The position numbers were made by a program, and so were the translations under genes. Under the pieces are notes generated by a model. The model did not search any database, was not told where the DNA came from, and saw only the letters and a list, made by a program, of their open reading frames with translations. From NCBI GenBank assembly GCA_015067705.1, contig SVLW01000006.1:1-64000 (forward strand): a stretch of 64,000 nt of DNA. The letters run 5' to 3'. Source of the DNA: Oscillospiraceae bacterium. GTDB lineage: Bacteria > Bacillota > Clostridia > Oscillospirales > QAMX01. This document shows, piece by piece, positions 50,558 through 51,521 of the stretch (position 1 is the stretch's first letter; each line of letters opens with the position of its first letter).

Positions 50558-50634
50558 GGCGGCATAGCTCAGTTGGCTAGAGCGTCCGGTTCATACCCGG
50601 CAGGTCGTTGGTTCAAATCCGACTGCCGCTACCA
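50558..50634 (+). tRNA. tRNA-Met(CAT)
   Basis: Full cloverleaf; acceptor GGCGGCA/TGCCGCT; encoded CCA; 27-43 U.C mismatch. Confidence 0.92.
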
Positions 50635-50638
50635 AGCA

Positions 50639-50668
50639 CTGAGAGCAGAGAAACATCTCTGCTCTCAG
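50639..50668 (+). repeat. 13-bp hairpin between tRNA-Met and tRNA-Glu
   Basis: ctgagagcagaga-aaca-tctctgctctcag. Confidence 0.9.
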
Positions 50669-50676
50669 CCATAAAA

Positions 50677-50751
50677 GGCCCGGTGGTCAAGCGGTTAAGA
50701 CACCGCCCTTTCACGGCGGTAACACGAGTTCGATTCTCGTCCGGGTCACCA
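50677..50751 (+). tRNA. tRNA-Glu(TTC)
   Basis: Anticodon loop CTTTCAC in CCGCC/GGCGG stem; encoded CCA. Confidence 0.93.
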
Positions 50752-50756
50752 TTTCT

Positions 50757-50832
50757 GGAGGCATAGCTCAGTTGGTAGAGCACTTGCTCCACACGCAAGG
50801 GGTCACAGGTTCGAGTCCTGTTGTCTCCACCA
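50757..50832 (+). tRNA. tRNA-Val(CAC) with C33
   Basis: Acceptor GGAGGCA/TGTCTCC; CTTGC-TCCACAC-GCAAG; encoded CCA. Confidence 0.85.
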
Positions 50833-50834
50833 GG

Positions 50835-50868
50835 AAAAAAGCCGATTGCAAATGCAATCGGCTTTTTT
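50835..50868 (+). terminator. Terminator of tRNA cluster
   Basis: 16-bp perfect aaaaaagccgattgca-aa-tgcaatcggctttttt. Confidence 0.9.
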
Positions 50869-50871
50869 CAA

Positions 50872-51042
50872 TGAAATAAATCCCTTGCAGGATTTGTGAA
50901 ATAACGCTTGCGCGTTATGAAATAGCTGACGCTATGAAATACGCTGCGGCGTATGAGGGATTTATTTTATTTCACATTCTGCCGCTCCGGCAGAATATTT
51001 CATAATCCGAAGGATTATTTCATATTGCTTCGCAATATTTCA
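50872..51042. repeat. Multi-hairpin palindromic element with TGAAAT/ATTTCA spacers
   Basis: Seven small perfect hairpins, four TGAAAT on the left and four ATTTCA on the right, plus a 12-bp long-range pairing. Confidence 0.85.
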
Positions 51043-51071
51043 TTCCATCCCCCTACCCCGAGGACATCATC

Positions 51072-51521
51072 ATGACAAACGTTATTCGTCCCGCTGTCGC
51101 GGCTGATCTGGCGCGGATTGCGGAGATCATTATTACAAACTATCGACTGAATTTCTATCCCATTTTCCGGGACGACGCCTTTTATTTCGGCGTGCTGACG
51201 GTGCCGGCGCAGATGGAAGTGTACCGGGAAGCGCTGGGCAGTCTCTGGGTGTACGACGACGGCGTGGTGAAGGGTGTCCTGCACGCCGAAGGACAGGAAG
51301 TGAAAAAGCTCTTTGTGGAACCGGTTTTGCAGGGACAGGGCATCGGCGCGGCACTTCTGGAATTTGCAGTGCAGAATTATTCCGCAAACACGCTCTGGGC
51401 GCTGGAAAAGAACGTCCGTGCCATCGCGTTTTATGAGCGCCATGGCTTTCACATAACTGAAGACCGGAAGCCCGAGGAGGATACGGACGAGTATCTGGTG
51501 CGGATGGCGCGCGGCAAATAA
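51072..51521 (+). CDS. GNAT family N-acetyltransferase
   Basis: VKKLFVEPVLQGQGIGAALLEFA; AIAFYERHGF. Confidence 0.88.
   Translation: MTNVIRPAVAADLARIAEIIITNYRLNFYPIFRDDAFYFGVLTVPAQMEVYREALGSLWVYDDGVVKGVLHAEGQEVKKLFVEPVLQGQGIGAALLEFAVQNYSANTLWALEKNVRAIAFYERHGFHITEDRKPEEDTDEYLVRMARGK

Follow-up and report, generated by a model that had tools for sequence, protein, structure and literature searches.

Weinberg et al. (2010; PMC2864571) described Gut-1 as a likely non-coding RNA known from human-gut environmental sequence only. In Rfam it is curated as a small RNA (RF01706), and no report of its function was found in the literature. S23 proteins were recognised in intervening sequences of rRNA by the early 1990s, and no function is known for them (PMC4990558); that their gene serves mobility is an old idea, for which that paper cites Ralph and McClelland (1993). 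Here we describe an array of mini-hairpins in a 64,000-nucleotide stretch of an Oscillospiraceae bacterium (contig SVLW01000006.1, positions 1 to 64,000, forward strand; hereafter the window). The array, at 50869..51045 (+), is probably a non-coding copy or derivative of a Gut-1-type DNA element, small and horizontally mobile, that is linked to a gene of the bS23 family, which we consider the best explanation of the observations as a whole.

In agreement with an assignment to Gut-1, the left half of the array matches the covariance model of RF01706 on the plus strand (50869..50945) with 57.7 bits, above the gathering cut-off of 50. The right half matches it in mirror orientation on the minus strand (50992..51050) with 42.7 bits, under the cut-off. 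An earlier note on this locus, which knew no named family for the array, was mistaken in this point; the family is an Rfam RNA of unknown function and not one of the MITE (miniature inverted-repeat transposable element) or REP (repetitive extragenic palindromic) families, assignment to which the note had set against its own interpretation. Its description of the sequence holds, with four TGAAAT spacers (50872, 50897, 50918, 50935) followed by four ATTTCA spacers (50969, 50997, 51017, 51037) and all proposed stems in place. The start of the array is corrected from 50872 to 50869 (CAATGAAAT) and its right end lies at about 51042-51048, the boundaries being taken from near-identical copies in other genera; the candidate ends of the element are CAAYGAAAT and ATTTCATTG.

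Parsing of the plus strand gives seven hairpins: hairpin 1 (50878..50895), hairpin 2 (50901..50918, loop TTGC), hairpin 3 (50922..50935, loop TGAC) and hairpin 4 (50939..50954, loop TGCG) in the left half, and hairpin 5 (50976..50996, loop CTC), hairpin 6 (51002..51018, loop GAA) and hairpin 7 (51022..51038, loop TTC) in the right half. Folded as single-stranded DNA, the region 50850-51060 reaches -40.2 kcal/mol, compared with -22.2 +/- 3.0 kcal/mol in 200 dinucleotide shuffles, none of which was that low (z -5.9). A segment termed X (AAATAAATCCCT, 50874..50885, +) contains the 5' arm of hairpin 1, AAATCC, which pairs with its local partner X', while the whole of X is complementary to the central strand X'' (AGGGATTTATTT, 50956..50967, +). 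This long-range pairing, already proposed in the note, is real: with exact complementarity of at least 8 nt as the criterion, 41 of 47 related elements show a counterpart, compared with 18 of 354 swapped controls. Several arm sequences are represented among the elements, and the central strand covaries with them. As the 5' arm of hairpin 1 pairs both locally and with the centre, two alternative pairings are maintained.

The host genome, a 2.2 Mb draft that is 94% complete, holds 12 RF01706 matches above the cut-off and 24 with E < 0.001. They largely form plus/minus pairs of ~170-240 bp, i.e. mirror elements, amounting to ~16 copies. A search for TGAAAT-N(8-24)-TGAAAT-N(8-24)-TGAAAT, of the kind the note had proposed, finds the pattern 10 times in this genome and its reversed control not at all. 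The start of nearly all copies directly follows a hairpin or terminator that in most cases belongs to tRNA genes, and 13 of the 26 ends of tRNA transcription units, counted by eye, carry the element. In the window, the array start directly abuts the terminator of tRNA-Val (hairpin 50841-50862, T-run 50863-50868). The site is empty in two relatives of the same genus (G001 and G002), where no element follows the orthologous tRNA-Met/Glu/Val array (82-84% identity); neither genome has a Gut-1 match anywhere. Copies in G013 share 92-94% identity with the window element, and copies in G011 share 98% with its left part (both genomes belong to other genera of the same family), while the syntenic tRNA array is only 67-84% identical in other genera. 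The flanks of these copies are unrelated, and the similarity ends at 50860/50865 and 51042/51048. Of 59 genomes, the host and its relatives, 30 contain matches, with a maximum of 58 in one genome and a patchy distribution. These observations establish that the element is horizontally mobile, and its location points to the ends of tRNA operons as its insertion sites. Hairpin stems vary within and between copies yet remain paired. That structure is under selection and that the element spreads or rearranges, both proposed in the earlier note, are thus supported by the unrelated but paired stems, the copy number, the near-identical copies between genera and the empty site; the Gut-1 identity and the gene carried by longer versions had escaped it.

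No array was found in a search of plasmids. A search of phages gave one phage-labelled scaffold, MT835590.1 (L222), in which an array is followed by a bS23-like gene, recognised by eye. A contig of 73.8 kb that is catalogued as viral (L396, IMGVR_UViG_3300031555_007195) also has tandem arrays and a bS23-like gene close to its end. Both array loci could be host DNA. The loose TGAAAT pattern was set aside for viral contigs, as it gave too many matches to inform, probably by chance in AT-rich sequence.

Several copies run on, 30-60 bp past the array, into a gene of ~120 codons. The linked gene of the host genome (contig C34, L241:12401-12754) matches PF05635 (1.4e-23) and TIGR02436 (2e-26), and a profile of the array-linked proteins matches the PDB entries 2rld (6.3e-38) and 2gsc (2e-4). 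Judged from these matches, the linked protein is a predicted four-helix bundle of the bS23/IVP type. Only the longer versions have the S23/IVP protein gene that characterises the intervening sequences of 23S rRNA; the window locus is non-coding, as the note had held, and its copy is without a bS23-like gene. When 30 PF05635 loci were selected by score, a mirror array proved to lie immediately upstream of the gene in 19, and further array-gene loci were found besides these 30. Within an element the spacers are uniform and between elements they differ (TGAAAT, TGATAT, TGAAGT, TGATGT, GCTAAAT, AGTTATATT and others). The element ends with the right end of the gene, since copies are unrelated in sequence past its last codons. 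In 21 of 35 cases, a few of them weak matches, a sigma70-like promoter (often TTGAAA-17-TATAAT) starts from the right end of the array, compared with 80 of 700 shuffles. Hence, the array is not a leader of the transcript made from that promoter. Arrays without the gene outnumber those with it. The remaining loci of the 30 either lie at contig edges or have the gene enclosed by short tandem repeats, which together make up an inverted repeat. This second kind of PF05635 locus, with imprecise repeats such as aatgcagaatgcagagtgcag on both sides of the gene, is seen in L273, L274, L275, L276, L277, L278, L287, L293, L297, L351, L355, L358 and L379.

Array and protein occur together and descend together. 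In a survey of 40 genomes, PF05635 was present in 20/22 genomes with Gut-1 and in 3/18 others, with 15 genomes having neither (p 2e-6), and among 196 genomes of the class it was present in 26/29 and 37/167, respectively (p 4e-12); these p values are nominal, as a few genomes occur in both surveys and the genomes are interrelated. The loci inspected in the three genomes with PF05635 only are all of the non-array kind. A tree built from 55 proteins resolves each of five array types (4 to 12 members) as one clade with a support of 98-100, and host families are mixed within the clades. Mapped onto this tree, the spacer type changes 7 times, which is the minimum, compared with 35.8 times when shuffled, and there is no exception. 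The exact figures have to be read with caution, as the labels were assigned by the author from a spacer scan, two groups (TGAWGY and AGTKATATT) were lumped, and related sequences inflate such tests. That protein clade and array subtype descend together is established.

The loops of the hairpins follow the strand of their half. Read on the same strand, left-half loops are TNC or TNNC in 116 of 150 cases and right-half loops GNA or GNNA in 56 of 110, and the loop-closing pair is C-G in 230 of 260; background hairpins have these loops in 15 of 112 cases. On its ATTTCA strand, each half therefore tends towards c(GNA)g or c(GNNA)g loops, a motif known from DNA mini-hairpins of extraordinary stability (PMC4686876). 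In the window copy hairpin 6 matches the motif, while hairpins 5 and 7 do not. A comparison of G-T with A-C mismatches between the strands comprised 4 mismatches only.

We propose that the full element would consist of a hairpin 0, usually a terminator, the mirror array of 4 + 3 mini-hairpins, the sigma70-like promoter and the bS23/IVP-type gene. The common descent of protein and array subtypes suggests that each protein binds its own kind of array, possibly as folded single-stranded DNA. The protein may then help to copy or insert the element behind the terminators of tRNA and tmRNA (transfer-messenger RNA) genes, and non-coding arrays such as the window copy would be served in trans. More tentatively, and with less than even probability, such elements may form a new class of mobile elements of gut bacteria, in which a bS23-type protein places a cognate mini-hairpin array of single-stranded DNA behind the terminators of tRNA operons, with or without its own gene and passengers such as a GNAT gene, and with no known transposase, integrase or reverse transcriptase. 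Several observations weigh against the proposed reading. Two of 22 and three of 29 Gut-1 genomes have no detectable PF05635 gene, some of these assemblies being incomplete, and no TGAAAT-type gene was found in the host genome (94% complete), despite its TGAAAT arrays. Insertion polymorphism between strains was not seen. No catalytic function is known for PF05635 proteins, which have no known function at all (PMC4990558), and the bS23-like gene could itself be a passenger.

The established description of Gut-1, a transcribed small RNA or regulatory leader as in Rfam and Weinberg et al. (2010), draws on its covarying stems, its curation and its listing among RNA candidates (PMC2864571). The two mirror halves lie on opposite strands, however, and the loops track the strand of each half and not one transcript. 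No UUCG loop occurs, and GNYA loops are as frequent as GNRA loops (34 and 28), which hardly suggests selection for GNRA loops of RNA. Copies start downstream of a terminator, a separate promoter past the array belongs to the linked gene, and presence is patchy between sister species, so that we regard a small RNA as unlikely. The location behind tRNA terminators and between genes would also fit mere bidirectional terminators or insulators that spread passively, with the bS23-like gene as a passenger. Most of the units are already preceded by a terminator, and neither the exceptionless co-descent of spacer type and protein clade nor the near-identical copies across families and sites would be expected of such insulators, which makes this account quite improbable.

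Two accounts invoke a known enzyme. Copying of an array RNA by a reverse transcriptase, with an Avd-like protein as its partner as in diversity-generating retroelements, would fit an insertion behind terminators, which recalls group IIC introns. PF05635 moreover resembles the protein Avd of these retroelements (PMC10053308). Reverse transcriptase is absent from most Gut-1 genomes, including that of the host, and shows no significant association with Gut-1 (4/22 compared with 5/18 genomes); copying of this kind was rejected as very improbable. The mirror hairpin pairs with their conserved foot resemble REPINs (REP doublets forming hairpins), and the host genome has one Y1 gene, as would suit elements related to REPINs or BIMEs (bacterial interspersed mosaic elements) and moved by a Y1 transposase of the RAYT (REP-associated tyrosine transposase) or IS200 type. 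No arrays adjoin this Y1 gene (PF01797), the stem sequence is not conserved between copies as it is in REPINs, and Y1 is absent from G023 and G031, genomes with 33 and 27 matches. With no significant association either (11/22 compared with 5/18), a Y1 or RAYT mobiliser was rejected and has the slightest chance of being right. The Y1 gene itself, of the IS200 type (L003, G000:C68:27296-27652), has flanking hairpins of its own, which are unrelated to the arrays. The mobile, bS23-linked DNA element remains the preferred explanation.

The window element lies downstream of an array of tRNA-Met, tRNA-Glu and tRNA-Val genes (50558..50832, +, ARAGORN), from which it is separated by the terminator hairpin 0 (GCCGATTGC-AAAT-GCAATCGGC and a T-run, 50835..50868, +), possibly itself a part of the element. 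A hairpin of this type stands ahead of nearly all copies. One such hairpin is shared by a G013 copy and by three copies in G011 that lie at different sites, and a TTGTC..GACAA core is present at 7 of 13 element-bearing tRNA ends and at 0 of 12 element-free ends with a terminator. The sequence of the window hairpin is not common to its 92-98% identical copies. Hairpin 0 thus seems to travel with the array in some copies. In L233, L234 and L235 (G003), the hairpin gcgcagtgtcctaaaggacactgcg stands ahead of the arrays; L235 has it again, inverted, at its far right, as though the arrangement lay within a MITE-like element with terminal inverted repeats.

Downstream, a gene for a GNAT acetyltransferase (51072..51521, +; PF13508, E 8.9e-13) occupies the position of the bS23-like gene in longer versions. 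As homology to G001 resumes only at ~51547, both array and GNAT gene are missing from the G001 site, and the gene may be a passenger, possibly cargo, of the element. GNAT, NUDIX, TfoX-like, methyltransferase and DUF (domain of unknown function) genes stand behind other copies. An integrase-type attachment site, hinted at by tmRNA 3'-end fragments before some copies and by a motif resembling a tRNA T-arm, was rejected, as the motif proved to be element-specific; no integrase gene was seen by eye in L229, the sole region with open reading frames listed. The motif (gagRGTTCGAATYC) is found at the right ends of one array subfamily (L043, L237, L238, L239 and L231), followed by a second terminator, and is near-identical in four host families. 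In L229 and L231, the tmRNA gene is followed by repeated tmRNA 3'-end fragments, of which some have a terminator and array of their own; small inverted-repeat units separate the fragments. In G011 a skipping-rope RNA (RF02924, L225:15210-15290) lies ~120 bp from a Gut-1 copy.

Among known systems, type III toxin-antitoxin loci also have a repeat RNA before a small gene. Here the repeats are mirrored, array and gene are separated by a promoter, and most arrays have no gene. Avd of the diversity-generating retroelements has a four-helix-bundle fold related to PF05635 (PMC10053308), whereas reverse transcriptase was not found to be associated with Gut-1 and is missing from the host genome; template and variable repeats were not searched for. 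REPINs and BIMEs with their RAYT (PMC3116915) are likewise non-coding mirror hairpins with a conserved foot, present in many copies, with a low-copy gene as the suspected mover, but the elements described here need no Y1 transposase, their stems are unconserved, and they have 7 hairpins and a linked four-helix-bundle protein. The intervening sequences of 23S rRNA with an S23 gene (PF05635, TIGR02436; PMC4990558) share the protein family and likewise look like small mobile elements that have paired flanks and sit in stable-RNA operons; four identical PF05635 genes within the 23S rRNA genes of G244 (L360-L363) are true intervening sequences. The array-linked proteins form a separate clade of the protein tree, the arrays lie behind terminators of tRNA, tmRNA and other genes and not within a helix of 23S or 16S rRNA, from which RNase III excises intervening sequences, and 7-8 mini-hairpins take the place of one long terminal stem. 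No link between PF05635 and a hairpin array was found in the literature searched, and as far as the papers show, the hairpin array, its Gut-1 link and the cognate pairing of protein and array are new. The strict pairing of clade and array type offers concrete cognate and non-cognate pairs, with which the unexplained role of the S23 protein family becomes testable; if the elements do form a new class, the S23 protein of rRNA intervening sequences would also gain a role in mobility. Compared with Gut-1 in Rfam, the window element has a left half above the family cut-off and the same plan of spacers and hairpins, while the Rfam family is one half, a strand-specific small RNA, and the element is a mobile mirror pair with DNA-type loops and a linked protein gene. 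The Rfam RNA family Gut-1 is thus probably a DNA element, which affects annotation in many gut genomes.
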